From Streptomyces sp. NBC_00820 (lineage in GTDB: Bacteria; Actinomycetota; Actinomycetes; Streptomycetales; Streptomycetaceae), in NCBI RefSeq assembly GCF_036347055.1, contig NZ_CP108882.1, forward strand, positions 5,126,501-5,190,500: a stretch of 64,000 nucleotides of DNA, given 5' to 3'. The notes beneath the pieces are model-generated. The model was given only the letters and a program-made list of their open reading frames with translations. It ran no database searches and was not told the DNA's origin. Position numbers and translations under genes: made by a program. Positions 57,856-64,000 of the stretch are shown piece after piece. Every line of letters begins with the position of its first letter. Positions within the stretch are counted from its first letter, which is position 1.

Positions 57856-58248
57856 TCAGACGGTGCGGATGACAGGGGCGGGTTTGATGTCCTGGGCGTC
57901 GATGAGGGTGCGGATGTCGTTCGGGTCCGAGGTCCAGATGATGGCGCCGAGGCTGGCTGCGATGGTCACGACGGTGGCGTCGACGATGTCGGAGGTGCCG
58001 GCCTTGCCGCAGAGGATGCCTGCGGCTTTGGCGGTTTCGAGGCCGACGGGTACGACGTGGCACCCGGCGAGGAACTTGCCGAGTCTGACCTGGCGGCGGG
58101 AGTCCCGCCATGCCTGGCTGACGACGACGGATGGGACGTGGATGTCCCGGCCGTCTTCGAGGGCCAGGCTGTGGCGGGCCCACATGCGTCGGTCGTCGTT
58201 GTTGATGGCGATGAGTACCCCGGCGTCGTACAGATAGGGGATGTTCAC
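57856..58248 (-). CDS. PIN-domain toxin (VapC-like)
   Basis: 130 residues from GTG 58246-58248. PIN acidic cluster: YLYDAGVLIAINNDDR (first Asp), an acidic patch around LEDGRD, GTSDIVDATVVTIAASLG and IWTSDPNDIRTLI. Predicted Mg-dependent endoribonuclease. The start overlaps the antitoxin stop by 4 bases (GTGA), the usual VapBC coupling. Catalytic residues look complete. Confidence 0.88.
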   Translation of the reverse strand: MNIPYLYDAGVLIAINNDDRRMWARHSLALEDGRDIHVPSVVVSQAWRDSRRQVRLGKFLAGCHVVPVGLETAKAAGILCGKAGTSDIVDATVVTIAASLGAIIWTSDPNDIRTLIDAQDIKPAPVIRTV

Positions 58249-58511
58249 GCGGCCGAGGCTCCCGAGCTGCTGAGGTACTCGGCGTCGGCGGCGGCCAGGT
58301 CCGCTCGGGCGGCGGCGAGCTCTTCGGGAGTGAAGGCGCCGTGTTCTGCCTGCCACTCCTGGATGACGGCCCGGCCGGCACGCAGGCGCAGCTCGCGTTC
58401 GGCTGCTCCGGCGACGAGGCGGGAGAGTGGGATGCCTTCTTCTTCGGCGGCTCCGGCCAGGGCTTCGACCAGGGATTCGTCGAGAGTGATAGTCACCTTC
58501 TTGGTAGCCAT
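58245..58511 (-). CDS. Ribbon-helix-helix antitoxin (VapB-like)
   Basis: 88 residues. N-terminal RHH DNA-binding segment MATKKVTITLDESLVEAL followed by helices (AAEEEGIPLSRLVAGAAERELR) and a C-terminal toxin-binding tail (FTPEELAAARADLAAADAEYL). It neutralises the downstream PIN toxin and represses the operon. Sits between the two integrase fragments, suggesting addiction-module cargo of the lost element. Confidence 0.88.
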   Translation of the reverse strand: MATKKVTITLDESLVEALAGAAEEEGIPLSRLVAGAAERELRLRAGRAVIQEWQAEHGAFTPEELAAARADLAAADAEYLSSSGASAA

Positions 58512-58759
58512 ACATCAACCATAGCGTGGTATGGCCTTCGGGTGTTGATGCAGGGATCGCGTGGCGGTGAGCGCGGAGGGCGTGAGTGCATCCAGCGAGG
58601 AGGGCCTCGCCGATTCGATAGACCGCGAGGCCGCGGGGCTGCGGGGGAGGCTGGGACCACATTCGCCGGAAAGAGTTGATTGGTGATGAATGTCTTGCTC
58701 GGCTGCGAGGCGGCGGTGCACGGTTTCGAGCACGGGCCAGGCGAAGGATCGGGGCTTGG

Positions 58760-59506
58760 GTGGCGAGCGTTTTTCAGAGGTGCAAGAGGGATGTCCGGGA
58801 CCGGAACTTTCCCTGTGATCGTCCGCGGTGTCGGCATGGGTGGACGGTCCGGTACCGGGAACCGGGCGGTAGGCGCGGGCGCCAGCGAGAGAGGTCGTTT
58901 CCTCGTCGGGTGGGCTCGGATGGTGCGGACGCTTTCGCCGACAAGGTCGAGAACGACCTGAAGGCCGGCATTCGCTTCGATCCTGCGCGAGGGCTTGTGC
59001 CGTTGCGGGCCTGGGCTCAGGAGTGGCTGGAGCGACGGGTCATCGGTGAGTCGACGCGCCGCAACTACGAAGGGTTCATCCGTAACCATCTCGTGCCGCG
59101 CCTGGGCCGGAAGATGCTGGCCGGGCTGGCGCGGCGCGACTTCGAGGAGTTCGCCAAGAACGTGCACGCCTCTGGTGCAGGGCTGGCGGTCTCCACAGTC
59201 AATGACCGGATGGTGATGGTGGCCGCCATGCTGGGGGCAGCCGTCGTTGACAAACGCATCCCGGACAATCCCGCGCGCGGCGTCCGGATATCCCGGGCGG
59301 ACCCCTGCGTAGTGGACGAGGACGAGATTCCCACGCTGGGCGAGGTCGATCTGATCGCGGAGCACATCGCCCCGCAGTACCGGCTCGCGGTCTACCTTCA
59401 GTCGGGTACCGGCCAGCGCCCCAGCGAGGCCCTGGCCTTCTCCACCGAGTGCCGACGCTCTGGTTTCGTCAGGATCCGTAAGCCCGTAAGGCTCTCTTTC
59501 CGCTGA
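58760..59506 (+). pseudogene. Tyrosine integrase, C-terminally truncated
   Basis: From GTG 58760: ASVFQRCKRDVRDRNF with CDRPRCRHGWTVRYREPGGR, the zinc-binding N-terminal block typical of actinobacterial element integrases. Next LRAWAQEWLERRVIGESTRR with core-binding helices (EGFIRNHLVPRLGRKML), and the catalytic domain start YRLAVYLQSGTGQRPSEALAF containing the first Arg. After about 59450 the sequence departs ([14 protein letters not shown] then TGA) and the R-H-R-Y box is missing. The frame stop overlaps the damaged antitoxin frame. Confidence 0.75.
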
Positions 59507-59742
59507 TCAAGAAGGTCAACGACGATCACGAGGCCATCGAGATCGTCTCCAAGCACGGCAACGCCGTTCTCGTCTCGGCCGAGGACTACGCGGCCCTGCG
59601 CGAGGGCTCCTACCTGCTGCGCTCGCCCGTGAACGCACGACGACTCCTCAAGGCGTACGAGAACGCCCTCAGCAACATCAACGTGTCGGAGCGCGAGCTG
59701 ATCGATCCGGATGCGGCGGACGCTGGTGCGGGTGCCGAGTGA
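59482..59742 (+). pseudogene. YefM/Phd-type antitoxin lacking its start
   Basis: The frame begins right after a TAA with [20 protein letters not shown] and continues [55 protein letters not shown], stop TGA 59740-59742. In relatives the first residues are M-S-I-T-A-S-E; these seven codons have been replaced by integrase-derived sequence. There is no in-frame ATG, GTG or TTG upstream of the conserved core; CTG 59503 at the truncated integrase stop (CTGA overlap) is the only coupling candidate. It overlaps the toxin start (GTGA). Confidence 0.75.
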
Positions 59743-59993
59743 GGCTTGTCTTCGAGGGTCAGGGCTGGGAGGACTACACGTCCTGGCTCAAGAACGACCG
59801 TAAGACGCTCGCTCGGATCAACAGGCTCATCGAGGACGTCAAGCGTGACCCCTTCACGGGGATCGGCAAGCCTGAACCGCTCAATTACCACTTGCCCGGG
59901 GCGTGGTCGAGGCGGATCGACGATGAGCACCGCCTTGTCTACCTGGTCATGGACAAGGAGATCGTCGTCCTCGCGGCGCGCTATCGCTACTGA
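59739..59993 (+). CDS. Txe/YoeB-family toxin, catalytic His replaced
   Basis: 84 residues from GTG 59739. YoeB pattern: [41 protein letters not shown] (with the Glu of KPEPL) and [15 protein letters not shown]. The family normally ends in C-R-Y-H-Y, where the His is the catalytic general acid/base (His83 in E. coli YoeB). Here the end reads ARYRY, so the His is Arg. The protein is full-length but probably inactive as a ribosome-dependent mRNA interferase. Confidence 0.85.
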
Positions 59994-60058: not shown

Positions 60059-61228
60059 CTACGGCGCAACCCGCCTGAACATCGGGTCGAATTCGGAGTC
60101 CTCCTCGTCGACGAGGTGCGGGAGGAAGCCGTCGGGGGTGGTGCGCGGGGCGGTGGTGAGGAGGCGGGTCAGGACGTCCTGGTCGGTGGCCGGGGGGAGG
60201 CGGAGGGCGGCGAGCAGGCGGTCGCGGACGGCGGGGTGGTCCGGGTGGTCCTGGAGGTAGTCGGAGTTCAGGGCCGGCGGGCGGAAGCCGGCCAGGGCGT
60301 CGTGCCAGGACGGAAGGACGATCGCGAGGGTCAGCGCTTCGGCGAGGGACTCGGCGATCAGGGAGGCCCGGCCCTCGGAGTCGGTATAGAGGACGGGGCG
60401 GGGGACGCCGGGGACGGCCGGACCGCAGAGGTAGTGCGTGCCGCCCGCGTTGCAGCCGGCGACCGGCTCCACCGGAAGGCCGTTGGGCAGGGCGATCGGC
60501 TCGATCGGGTCGGTGCGGGCGATGTCGAACTCACCGTCGCCGGCCAGGTAGGCGGCGACCTCGGGATGCGCGGCGATCCTGTGGAGCAGGACGCTCTCCG
60601 AGAGGATGTTCGGGTTGAGGGCCGTGACGACCGCGGGGGTGAGGGCGTGCCCGGCCAGGACGTGACGCACGGCGTCGAGGGGGACCGGGCGCTCGTAGTC
60701 CTCCTCGAAGTGGTCCTGCACCGCCTCCGCGGAACGGTCGGTGAGGAGGCCGAAGAGGAAGTCGGAGCCGTCCGGGTCCGCATTGTCCGAGGGGAAGTCG
60801 ATGGCCGAGCCGGTGCGCCAGGCGGTGTCGCCGGTCTCCCGCCACAGGCACGCGGTGACGCGGGTGAGGCCGAGGCCCTCGTCACGGAAGGCGGGCTGCT
60901 CCAGGAGCGGGCGCAGCACGGCGGGCACTTCGTCGACGACGCCCGGCCAGGTCTGTCCGTCGTCCGTACCGTAGGGGCTCATCCGTGACTCGTGGTCGAA
61001 ACCGCGTATGAGCACGCCGGCCGGGGAGAAGAGGACCGAGAACTCGTCCCCCGAGCCGTTCTCCATCAGGGCCGCCTCCACGCCGGGACCCCAGGCGGGG
61101 TCGAACGTGTAGGAGGCGGAGCGCGGATCGCCGCAGATCGTGCCCTCCAGGACGGCCAGCGCGCGCAGATGGGCGCGGAGTTCGGCGGGTTCGGGGAGGA
61201 GGGCGGCGATCTCGTGCACAGTGGTCAT
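60059..61228 (-). CDS. Hypothetical protein
   Basis: 389 residues from ATG 61226-61228 (MTTVHEIAALLPEP); the frame extends 16 codons upstream without a better start. Predicted cytosolic alpha-rich protein with acidic segments (SDNADPDGSDFLFGLLTDR) and repeated helical leucine patterns (HPDHPAVRDRLLAALRLPPATDQDVLTRLLTTAP) that resemble HEAT-like repeats. No catalytic motif recognised. It lies 159 bases downstream of the peptidase gene on the same strand and could belong to that locus. Confidence 0.75.
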   Translation of the reverse strand: MTTVHEIAALLPEPAELRAHLRALAVLEGTICGDPRSASYTFDPAWGPGVEAALMENGSGDEFSVLFSPAGVLIRGFDHESRMSPYGTDDGQTWPGVVDEVPAVLRPLLEQPAFRDEGLGLTRVTACLWRETGDTAWRTGSAIDFPSDNADPDGSDFLFGLLTDRSAEAVQDHFEEDYERPVPLDAVRHVLAGHALTPAVVTALNPNILSESVLLHRIAAHPEVAAYLAGDGEFDIARTDPIEPIALPNGLPVEPVAGCNAGGTHYLCGPAVPGVPRPVLYTDSEGRASLIAESLAEALTLAIVLPSWHDALAGFRPPALNSDYLQDHPDHPAVRDRLLAALRLPPATDQDVLTRLLTTAPRTTPDGFLPHLVDEEDSEFDPMFRRVAP

Positions 61229-61387
61229 GGCTGTATGGAAGCAGTCCGCACTGACAGTCCCCCCCGGGAGGTCCACGTGGTCCGGACCGGACGGCGGGAC
61301 GCTGCCGGCAACGGATTGCGGCGGCTTGCGACAGACCGCGCGTTTCCGCCGGGCCTGCTCAGCCGCCGCGTGTCCCCGATTCCCCGC

Positions 61388-62788
61388 TCACCGCAGGGAC
61401 TTCAGCGCGCTCTCCGCGGCTGCCGTGACCGTGCGTCTCTGGTGTTCCACCTGATCGCGCACGGGTACCCAGCGCACCCGCAGAGCCTTCTCGAAATCCG
61501 TGCACCCCGCGGTGAAGAGTTCGTCCAGCTCGCGGTGGAGCGCGGGGGCGGCGGGGTCGTCCGCCGACTTCAGCAGGCGGAGCAGGAGGCCCGCCGCGCG
61601 GAGCGGCTGCCGGCGGGCCACGATGTCCAGGGCCGCTACCTGGGCGGTCGTCAACCGGCGCGGATCACCGGCGTGTGACGCGGCGGCCGCCTGCCGGGCG
61701 AGTGGTTCCCAGGAAGCGGCGACGATGTCGTAGAGGCCGTCGGCCATCCACTCCACCACGCGTCTGAGCGGGTCGTCCTGGGCCGGCGGCAGGAATCCGC
61801 GCGCCTTGTCGAGGACGGCGGTCACCTGCCGTCCGCCGTCCAGCACCAGCCCGGCCAGGTCGCGCAGCGCGTGGTCGGCCCGCGGGTGCGGGGACAGGTC
61901 CTCGGCCATGTCGGTGGCCCACATGGGCACTTCGACGATCGCCGTGACGCCGCCGTACCGCAGAGGCGCGCACCAGGTGGACAGCCCTATGTTCTCCGAC
62001 CCGGCCGCCAGGCGGTCGGTGCTGTCCGGCGGAGGCAGGACGTGGACCGCGGGGCTGGGGTTCTCCCAGCCCAGGGCGTCGTACGTGCCGTGCTGGAGAG
62101 GAATTCCGAGCTCGGCCGCCGACGCGCGGAAGGGGGCGCCCAGTTCGGGGAGGTCGCGGGTCAACTGCACCCAGCTGCCGCCCACATCGGTGCTGTGCAG
62201 GGAGCACTGGAGGACCGGCCGCGATTCGTCGATCACCTCGAACAGCGTCCGCGTCTCCGGGAGCGGCCGCGCGGCGATCGGCGCCCACTCCGGCTGTTCC
62301 GCGGCGATCGGGCGGTAGGCGGTGCGGTAGTAGTGGCTCAGGGTGGGGGCGGCCGTCGGTTCGTCGGCCGTGGGGGGCGTTCCTTCGGCGGTGGCCAAGC
62401 TGGGTGCGTCGCCCAGGCTGGGTGCCGTGCCCTCGCTCGGCGCCGTGCCCTCACTGAGTGCGCCGCACTCGCTCAGCGCCGCGCCGTCCGGGTCGAGGCA
62501 CAGGATGATGTCCCAGGTGACAGCGGCGGGGTCGGTCGCCGGGGACCGCCGGTCGCCGCGTGCCACCCGCTCCGCCAGCGCCAGCGCGGTCGCGCCGCCG
62601 ACCGGCTCGTCGGGGTGCGGTCCGGCGACCACCAGGATGTGGCGCGGCCCGTGCCCCACGGACAGCATCAGGATCGGACGTCCCGCGCGGGACGTCCCGA
62701 CCCGGCGCAGCCGGCCGGTTCCGGGGAACCGGGAGACCAGCCGCCGCGCCGACTCGGTGACCTCCGCGACCGTGGGGTAGCGGTCCAT
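61388..62788 (-). CDS. M14-family zinc carboxypeptidase
   Basis: 466 residues from ATG 62786-62788; GTG 62819-62821, overlapping the peptide gene, is a longer option. Zinc ligands His58 and Glu61 (AGPHPDEPVGG) with the third His190 (CSLHSTDVGGS), and the catalytic Glu278 (IVEVPMWATD). An Ala/Ser/Glu/Thr-rich imperfect repeat inserts at about 108-145. The C-terminal 150 residues are helical. No signal peptide, so it acts in the cytosol. It follows the 25-residue peptide gene by 13 bases; processing of that peptide's C-terminus is the attractive inference. Confidence 0.85.
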   Translation of the reverse strand: MDRYPTVAEVTESARRLVSRFPGTGRLRRVGTSRAGRPILMLSVGHGPRHILVVAGPHPDEPVGGATALALAERVARGDRRSPATDPAAVTWDIILCLDPDGAALSECGALSEGTAPSEGTAPSLGDAPSLATAEGTPPTADEPTAAPTLSHYYRTAYRPIAAEQPEWAPIAARPLPETRTLFEVIDESRPVLQCSLHSTDVGGSWVQLTRDLPELGAPFRASAAELGIPLQHGTYDALGWENPSPAVHVLPPPDSTDRLAAGSENIGLSTWCAPLRYGGVTAIVEVPMWATDMAEDLSPHPRADHALRDLAGLVLDGGRQVTAVLDKARGFLPPAQDDPLRRVVEWMADGLYDIVAASWEPLARQAAAASHAGDPRRLTTAQVAALDIVARRQPLRAAGLLLRLLKSADDPAAPALHRELDELFTAGCTDFEKALRVRWVPVRDQVEHQRRTVTAAAESALKSLR

Positions 62789-62801: not shown

Positions 62802-62879
62802 TCAGGAACCGCCGTTGCCACCGCTGTCGCCGGTGGTCTCCTTCTTGTCCAGCGGACGGATCTCGATCTTGTTCGGCAT
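62802..62879 (-). CDS. 25-residue candidate precursor or carrier peptide
   Basis: A short gene: ATG 62877-62879 with a strong GGAAGGG seven bases upstream, stop TGA 62802-62804. The peptide starts MPNKIEIRPLDKK, continues ETTGD and ends SGGNGGS. A charged N-terminal half looks like a leader or recognition segment; the Gly-rich C-terminus ending G-G-S is unusual for its size. It is directly upstream of the M14 peptidase gene and divergent from an E1/ThiF-like enzyme gene. No homologue is known to me. Confidence 0.6.
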   Translation of the reverse strand: MPNKIEIRPLDKKETTGDSGGNGGS

Positions 62880-63010
62880 GTCGTGTCCCTTCCGGTGGTG
62901 GCCGTGCCGTGCCGTGCAGGAGATTGATGTGCTCTTGCCAGGCTTCGCGTCGGGGGTGACTGTTGTCAACGACCGGTGCCGCCGGAGGAGCCGGTGCTGA
63001 CGAGATTGGC
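62880..63010. promoter_or_regulatory. Divergent promoter region of the peptide/ThiF locus
   Basis: 131 bases between the peptide gene and the ThiF-like gene, containing the peptide ribosome binding site on one side. GGAGG-like sequence at 62983-62988 is rather far from the rightward start. No known operator was recognised. Confidence 0.4.
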
Positions 63011-64000
63011 GTGAAGATGACGCTGCGAGCGATGCGACGGCCTCGGATCAAGCCCGAGCACCGGGCCTACCGGACGGTGGACGGCCACGTAAGGATCGGG
63101 AGCGTCGTCCACGGCATCGGGTCCGAGGTCAAGGACCCCGACGGCTGGGTGTGGACGCTGGTCGAGGTCATGGACGGCACGCGGGACGCCGAGGACATCG
63201 TCGCCGAGGTGTCCCGTCGCCATCCGGGACTGCGGTTACCGGCCCCGGACATCGTCCGGGCGATGACGGACCTGACCACGGCCGGGTTCGTGGAGGACGC
63301 CGGTGCCGCGCCGCCGGCGGAGCTGTCCGAGCGGGAACGGGAGCGGTACGGCCGGGGCATGACGCTGCTGCGCTGGATGGATCTGCGGCCGCGGGAGAGT
63401 GCCTGGGAGCCGCAGGTGCGGCTGCGCCGGGCCCGGGTCCTGCTGGTCGGTGTCGGCGGTACCGGCGGAGCGGCCGCCCGGGACCTGGTGGCCTCCGGGG
63501 TGGGGCGGCTGCACTGCGTCGACCCGGACGTCGTCGAGCTGTCCAACCTCAACCGGCAGACGCTCTTCCGTGAGGACGACCTCGGTACGGCCAAGGTCGA
63601 CGCGGCGCTGACGGCGTTGCGCGCGCTGAACTCGGACACGGAGGTCACGGGTGAGCGCCGGGAGGTACGCGGACCGGCGGACCTCGAAGCCCTGCTGACC
63701 GGTGCCCCCGGCGGTTCCGGCGACCCCCGCGGCTCCCGTGCCCTCGGCGGCAGACCGGCGTGCAGCAGACCGGCGTACGACGTGCTGCTGCTGGCCGCCG
63801 ACCGCCCCGCCGTCATCCGCAGATGGGCCAACCAGGTCTGTCTGGCATCCGGCACCCCGTGGGCCGAAGCCGGTTACCGCGGCCCGCTGGTGAGTGTCGG
63901 GGTCTTCACGCCCGGCCGGGGCGCGTGCTGGGAGTGCCTGCGCATCGCCGAGGCCGAGCGGCGCGATCTGCGGCTCGCGCCCGGACAGGACGAGGACGTC
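63011..64000 (+). CDS. E1/ThiF-family adenylyltransferase with N-terminal peptide-binding-like domain, partial
   Basis: At least 330 residues; runs off the right edge. Start GTG 63011 or ATG 63017. Residues about 10-100 form a winged-helix-like domain (PEHRAYRTVDGHVRIGSVVHG, GWVWTLVEVMDGTRDAEDIV, IVRAMTDLTTAGFVED) similar to PqqD-type RiPP recognition elements fused to TOMM enzymes. The E1 core has nucleotide loop VGVGGTGGAAARDL (about 143-156), VDPDVVELSNLNRQTLF and the ATP-contact Arg, DDLGTAKVDAAL, and zinc Cys304/Cys307 (GACWECLR). It should adenylate a carboxylate, most likely of a small peptide or carrier. Confidence 0.85.
   Translation, partial: MKMTLRAMRRPRIKPEHRAYRTVDGHVRIGSVVHGIGSEVKDPDGWVWTLVEVMDGTRDAEDIVAEVSRRHPGLRLPAPDIVRAMTDLTTAGFVEDAGAAPPAELSERERERYGRGMTLLRWMDLRPRESAWEPQVRLRRARVLLVGVGGTGGAAARDLVASGVGRLHCVDPDVVELSNLNRQTLFREDDLGTAKVDAALTALRALNSDTEVTGERREVRGPADLEALLTGAPGGSGDPRGSRALGGRPACSRPAYDVLLLAADRPAVIRRWANQVCLASGTPWAEAGYRGPLVSVGVFTPGRGACWECLRIAEAERRDLRLAPGQDEDV

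Follow-up and report, generated by a model that had tools for sequence, protein, structure and literature searches.

The 64,000-nucleotide stretch of Streptomyces sp. NBC_00820 analyzed here (contig NZ_CP108882.1, positions 5,126,501 to 5,190,500; hereafter the window) carries at its right end a compact cassette organized around a peptide of 25 residues, MPNKIEIRPLDKKETTGDSGGNGGS. The peptide gene lies on the minus strand (62802–62879), with its ATG at 62879, its stop codon at 62804–62802, and a ribosome-binding site, GGAAGGG (62887–62893), 7 nt before the ATG. Residues 1–18 (62826–62879), which contain the motif IEIRPLDKKET, presumably form a leader, and residues 19–25 (62805–62825; S-GGNGGS) form the presumed core, in which S19 is the proposed nucleophile. 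On the same strand, a gene for an M14 zinc carboxypeptidase of 466 residues (61388–62788) begins with an ATG at 62788, 13 nt after the precursor stop codon. An intergenic region (62880–63016), which presumably holds both promoters, separates the peptide gene from a divergent gene on the plus strand for an E1 (ThiF-like) enzyme of 409 residues. The latter starts at approximately 63017, is cut by the window edge at 64000, and runs on to 64246, where its stop codon overlaps the GTG start of a gene for an M50-type membrane protease (64243–65505, plus strand), which was identified in the genome sequence beyond the window. Both the protease and the E1 enzyme carry a recognition element (RRE) of the kind found in pathways for ribosomally synthesized and post-translationally modified peptides (RiPPs). 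A preliminary description of this DNA had placed the carboxypeptidase immediately downstream of a 25-codon gene with a good ribosome-binding site, and the E1 gene divergent from it; the coordinates and the ribosome-binding site bear this out.

The frame of the peptide gene is open upstream as far as a TTG at 62969, which would give 55 residues, and the ATG at 62879 was taken as the start on account of the ribosome-binding site and the similar start positions in relatives. Conservation was examined in a pool of 121 E1 loci, i.e., the window's own (L003), 80 from named genomes, and 40 further stretches, from which seven duplicates were removed to leave 114 non-redundant loci. The scan of named genomes found at least 80 further E1 loci and is a sample rather than a census. 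A 13-residue profile with a threshold of 12 was used to score short open reading frames (ORFs). In the window, the precursor ORF scored 46.0, and the runner-up among 585 short ORFs scored 6.2. Among the matches listed, 66 of the 80 named loci had a peptide above the threshold within 4.5 kb of E1, and the highest score among 5977 short ORFs lying over 5 kb from E1 was 7.5, a contrast that is limited by the training of the profile on E1-near peptides from the same loci. Altogether, a peptide with the motif I-x-I/V-R-x-L-D-x-x-E-T is present in 99 of the 114 loci, with two tandem precursors in seven loci and three in four. In a survey of 391 genomes of the window's order, E1 homologues (E-value threshold 1e-30) occurred in 39, and inspection by eye found a short ORF with the same motif in all 30 loci taken from that survey, the window's included. 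In 13 unique precursor sequences, the ratio of nonsynonymous to synonymous polymorphism (pN/pS) across the first 19 codons was 0.23. A protein database search returned 109 relatives at E ≤ 1; those with a source name are annotated as hypothetical or uncharacterized, and none carries a Pfam domain. The 25-residue ORF is thus a real gene that ordinary length cut-offs overlook, and many soil actinobacteria have kept it together with the adjacent E1 gene.

The preliminary description had expected a short ORF conserved in homologous loci with an invariant K-I-E-I-R-P-L and a Gly-rich end. The first part recurs, in the relaxed form I-x-I/V-R-x-L, but a C-terminal Gly-Gly is not conserved: the window's peptide ends in GGS, and its relatives variously end in S, A, T, N, G, E, D, or R. 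Since the peptide is only 25 residues long and lacks a conserved Gly-Gly terminus, it is not a sulfur carrier of the ThiS/MoaD type, and the minimal carrier system suggested earlier is not supported. Fifteen of the 114 loci had no scored precursor. Fourteen of these were inspected by eye (L067 was omitted as it starts at a contig end), and eight, assigned by record name to Amycolatopsis, Saccharothrix, Crossiella, Actinokineospora, and Pseudonocardiaceae, contain, immediately ahead of E1, a short ORF with a different motif (L089, L090, L097, L103, L104, L112, L117, and L125; e.g., M-I-E-F-I-E-V-...-E-T-T-F-S-S-P-T-Q-Q-S). These ORFs probably represent a sister precursor family.

The E1 enzyme

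The E1 domain (PF00899) was found in all 14 E1 members tested, and G144, G146, G147, D170, N176, R179, Q180, K192, and D261 are invariant among them; we take these residues to serve ATP binding and adenylation. The N-terminal region is an RRE-like peptide clamp (63038–63304, approximately residues 7–95 of the modeled stretch). In the window's enzyme it matches PaaA-like_N with an E-value of 4e-4 and 20.3 bits, below the Pfam cut-off of 27, and among the 14 N-termini weak matches were obtained to PaaA-like_N in five and to PqqD in two. A structural model of the whole protein has MccB as its closest solved structure and PaaA as the second, and it aligns to MccB from residue 6 and to PaaA from residue 11. 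A sequence alignment to MccB was also obtained, and the sequence match to PaaA takes in the RRE. As modeled, the enzyme is therefore an RRE-E1 fusion of the MccB/PaaA fold, in agreement with the PqqD-like N-terminal domain noted earlier from the letters alone.

Among the matches listed, the E1 enzyme also occurs in several further actinobacterial groups. Two relatives, L128 and L130, come from metagenome-assembled genomes named Thermoplasmata archaeon and bacterium, and in L130 the E1 gene is accompanied by a precursor and an M50 gene; the family may thus reach beyond Actinomycetota.

Each testable feature of a ThiF-like RiPP pathway was found at this locus, namely an E1 domain, an RRE, and a short precursor with a conserved leader and a variable core, and the locus is assigned with high confidence to a RiPP cassette of the ThiF-like kind, belonging to an uncharacterized actinobacterial family. 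Of the two options raised in the preliminary description, it is the RiPP that fits a conserved precursor beside an RRE-E1 fusion.

PaaA, the second closest structure, modifies Glu residues (PMC12250964), and E-T is strongly conserved here at both positions; E1 might hence activate the side chain of this Glu (or of the Asp) in L-D-K-x-E-T, with a nearby Lys or Thr attacking. However, the Glu is replaced by Gln in L078 and L081 and by Gly in L094 and L099, and these four replacements set the idea back. Moreover, the Glu-Glu pair that defines the pantocin A core is found in none of 68 distinct tails, and conservation of this stretch is as expected for an RRE-bound leader. Such internal activation is considered quite improbable.

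Tail pattern and predicted ring size

Beyond E-T, the tails vary but retain a nucleophile: Ser, less often Cys, and Lys in one clade. With one precursor taken per locus, one of these three residues occupied the fifth position after the conserved Glu (Glu+5) in 65 of 82 loci under 90% identity (shuffled tails: mean 21.5, maximum 35), 31 of 43 under 70% (mean 11.6, maximum 22), and 16 of 24 under 60% (mean 6.2, maximum 14); under 50% identity, the 4 of 8 loci did not reach significance (mean 1.5, maximum 6). Several longer tails have Ser or Cys six residues from the end in place of Glu+5. The Lys type forms one clade of 11 loci (support 100 in a quick tree) and has exactly four residues after the Lys. 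Joining the side chain to the C-terminal carboxylate would produce the same ring size in each case, i.e., 19 atoms for Ser-x5 or Cys-x5 (5 × 3 + 4) and 19 for Lys-x4 (4 × 3 + 7).

This 19-atom rule was seen in the first set of tails, where Ser or Cys at −6 or Lys at −5 from the end occurs in 47 of 68, and was then tried on 67 distinct database tails, 20 of which had already been seen. It held in 42 of the 47 new tails (shuffle mean 13.3, maximum 25), although these are not independent, 20 of them being of the Lys type. Over 115 distinct tails, the predicted ring has 19 atoms in 88, 22 atoms in 13, and another size in 5, with none in 9. The window's own tail, S-GGNGGS, is of the 22-atom type and would form a 19-atom ring if one residue were trimmed first. 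Judged from the tails, closure of a C-terminal macrocycle is proposed with moderate confidence.

A product with no side-chain ring would also start from a C-terminal acyl-adenylate, which could take up a nucleotide through an N-P bond, as in microcin C, or an amine or a backbone amide to give an imide, while the conserved Ser, Cys, or Lys served binding or cleavage. In favor of this reading, no solved structure is closer than MccB, 30 of the 114 precursors share the terminal Asn of MccA, and the acyl-adenylate of EnfB is converted into an imide or amide (PMC12250964). Yet the terminal Asn that defines microcin C is missing from the other 84 precursors, including the window's, which ends in Ser, and many different last residues occur. 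Neither the exchange of Ser, Cys, and Lys nor the Lys tails being one residue shorter is explained in this way, and a ring-free product is regarded as unlikely.

The carboxypeptidase, the M50 protease, and neighboring genes

The window's M14 protein matches Pfam Peptidase_M14 with 36.8 bits (cut-off 21.6), and all 13 aligned members share H63xxE66, H203, and E291. Partner genes were counted per locus with profile searches. An M14 gene is present in 43 of the 99 precursor loci, and the other 56 lack one in the fetched flank. Where an M14 gene is present, 50 of 51 precursors have Gly as the second-last residue, vs. 23 of 63 of the rest, and the last residue is Asn in 2 of 51 vs. 28 of 63. A Gly before the last residue would suit the removal of one residue. 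The preliminary description had gone further and supposed that the carboxypeptidase first trims G-G-S to expose Gly-Gly or Asn, upon which E1 activates the new terminus, in either a sulfur-carrier-like system or a RiPP. This order of events is favored by the adjacency of the two genes in the window and by the raw counts, which are striking. Nevertheless, M14 presence changes only about five times on the tree, and the link to Gly (second-last or last, all precursors of a locus) was not significant in a sign test of four pairs, with two for and none against. In addition, M14 homologues (E 1e-20) occur in 209 of the 391 genomes, and no M14 gene lies near the precursors of L160, whose tails are GGNGGS and NANGT. 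Trimming to Asn or Gly was accordingly set aside, and a pathway that depends on M14 acting first appears improbable, more so than internal Glu activation.

In nine loci with a close M14 (66–77% identity), the fetched 11 kb contain neither an E1 nor an M50 gene; an E1 is encoded elsewhere in two of these genomes, and seven have none at 1e-30. One of the nine has an intact precursor (L178), two have an altered one (L179 and L181), and six have none, indicating that the precursor tends to accompany E1 and that M14 can persist without both. The altered motifs are read as probable precursor decay, and L178, L179, and L181 constitute a natural experiment on E1 loss. M14 is the least certain part of the cassette and an optional partner. 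In six loci (L069, L070, L075, L076, L077, and L079), two M14 genes flank E1 and no M50 gene was detected, as if a second M14 had replaced the protease.

The RRE-M50 gene, which lay outside the view of the preliminary description, is found in 66 of the 99 precursor loci, and the N-terminus of its product has the PqqD/RRE fold. M50 proteases act in other RiPP pathways, as stated in the cited part of PMC10885120. A DUF6879 gene lies just downstream of E1 or M50 in 22 of the 99 loci (e.g., L071, L074, L091, and L109). No recurrent transporter gene was found beside E1 in Streptomyces loci by neighbor clustering, which relied on a weak gene caller and may for that reason have overlooked some. Together with the polar, Ser/Gly/Asn-rich tails, this result would suit a peptide that acts inside the cell, e.g., as a regulator or scaffold read by two RRE proteins, with no secreted product. 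The frequency of the membrane-bound RRE-M50 and the diverse tandem precursors of 11 loci fit the export of a varied product instead, and an intracellular role is considered very improbable.

A wider conserved cluster was rejected: at 1e-20, a flotillin-like gene and the gene upstream of M14 (60059–61276) were each matched in 3 of the 114 loci, one of them being that of the window, and the ORF that follows the flotillin-like gene (L003 8193) in one. Farther away, three features were noted by eye. A PIN-domain-like protein and a small antitoxin-like protein (57856–58511, minus strand; the latter at 58245–58511) resemble a VapBC toxin-antitoxin pair, and a YoeB/Txe-like toxin frame (59739–59993) is preceded by a short partner at 59629–59742 (59629–59993, plus strand). 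Beside these genes, a frame like part of a phage-type integrase (58676–59506, plus strand) perhaps marks an old mobile-element site.

Proposed pathway and comparison with known systems

The best overall explanation, which we consider somewhat probable, is that the leader-bound RRE-E1 enzyme cyclizes the 25-residue precursor at its C-terminus and that M50 removes the leader. The charged N-terminal half (I-x-I-R-x-L-D-K-x-E-T) would be the leader bound by the RRE of E1, whose homology to known clamps is described above. E1 would adenylate a carboxylate of the precursor, most likely, by analogy with IndF, EnfB, and MccB, that of the C-terminus. The acyl-adenylate would then be attacked by a side chain, which the sequence pattern places mostly at Glu+5; the proposal follows what is known of IndF, EnfB, and GrcB. 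On the same pattern, the product would be a macrolactone, a thiolactone, or a macrolactam, and its ring would in most cases count 19 atoms. The RRE of M50 may bind the leader as well, so that the protease would remove it and might help release the product; with an RRE on an intramembrane protease, release would be coupled to recognition of the leader. M14, where present, might conceivably trim the C-terminus or clear uncyclized peptide. From the pattern, the product is predicted to be lighter by 18 Da and to contain, in most cases, a 19-membered ring, closed by an ester bond in the Ser clades and by an amide bond in that of Lys.

Among known systems, IndF, from the ind cluster of Streptococcus, forms an indolylamide RiPP by linking the C-terminal carboxylate with the side chain of a Trp (PMC12150305). 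The ind cluster resembles the present cassette in its RRE-ThiF fusion, short precursor, metalloprotease, and linkage of the C-terminal carboxylate to an upstream side chain, but it has a Trp nucleophile and an M16 protease and belongs to Firmicutes, whereas a Ser/Cys/Lys pattern, an RRE-M50, and often an M14 occur here, in Actinomycetota. GrcB, of the GRC-type thiolactone RiPPs, is likewise an RRE-ThiF enzyme that closes a ring via a side-chain nucleophile, yet its ring connects the side chain of a Glu with a Cys close to the C-terminus, and it is found beside radical SAM enzymes (PMC12250964). EnfB, of the enterofaecin pathway, is an RRE-E1 that activates the C-terminus, and its leader motif (V/I)R-K-A is akin to I/V-R-x-L; it forms a backbone-amide imide at a Trp/Ile-rich end, in contrast to the polar tails here (PMC12250964). 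PaaA, of the pantocin A pathway, is an RRE-E1 fusion with a precursor of similar size and a required leader (PMC12250964), but a Glu-Glu core is missing here, the Glu is not invariant, and the partner genes appear to differ. MccB is similar over the whole length of E1; the differences are the terminal Asn, which is not conserved here, and a precursor of leader plus tail instead of the microcin C heptapeptide.

The motif strings of the precursor had no match in open-licence literature, and no description of the family was recognized in the open-licence ThiF/RiPP literature, which was represented mostly by titles and abstract openings; it may be among the additional RRE-ThiF clusters depicted in Figure S1 of PMC12150305. 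In the portions of the literature covered, ThiF-like RiPP enzymes of known product are few (microcin C, pantocin A, GRC, enterofaecin, and ind), and none is actinobacterial. The present RRE-E1 enzyme occurs in 39 of 391 genomes of the window's order and in several further actinobacterial groups, with precursors that are annotated as hypothetical proteins and are often too short to be called.

The autoinducing peptides derived from AgrD in Firmicutes are small lactones or thiolactones closed to the C-terminus, in which Cys and Ser alternate; they are made by the protease AgrB and have a ring of 16 atoms. Here, ring closure would proceed via an acyl-adenylate and give 19 atoms. As a tentative proposal, to which we give slightly less than even weight, the cassette may represent a RiPP class widespread in Actinomycetota whose small C-terminal macrocycles are produced by an E1 of the MccB/PaaA type: macrolactones and thiolactones, and macrolactams in a single clade. 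The 19-atom ring would be kept across the switch from Ser to Lys, the product would be released by an intramembrane RRE-M50, and the class would be an E1-based counterpart of the Firmicutes autoinducing peptides.
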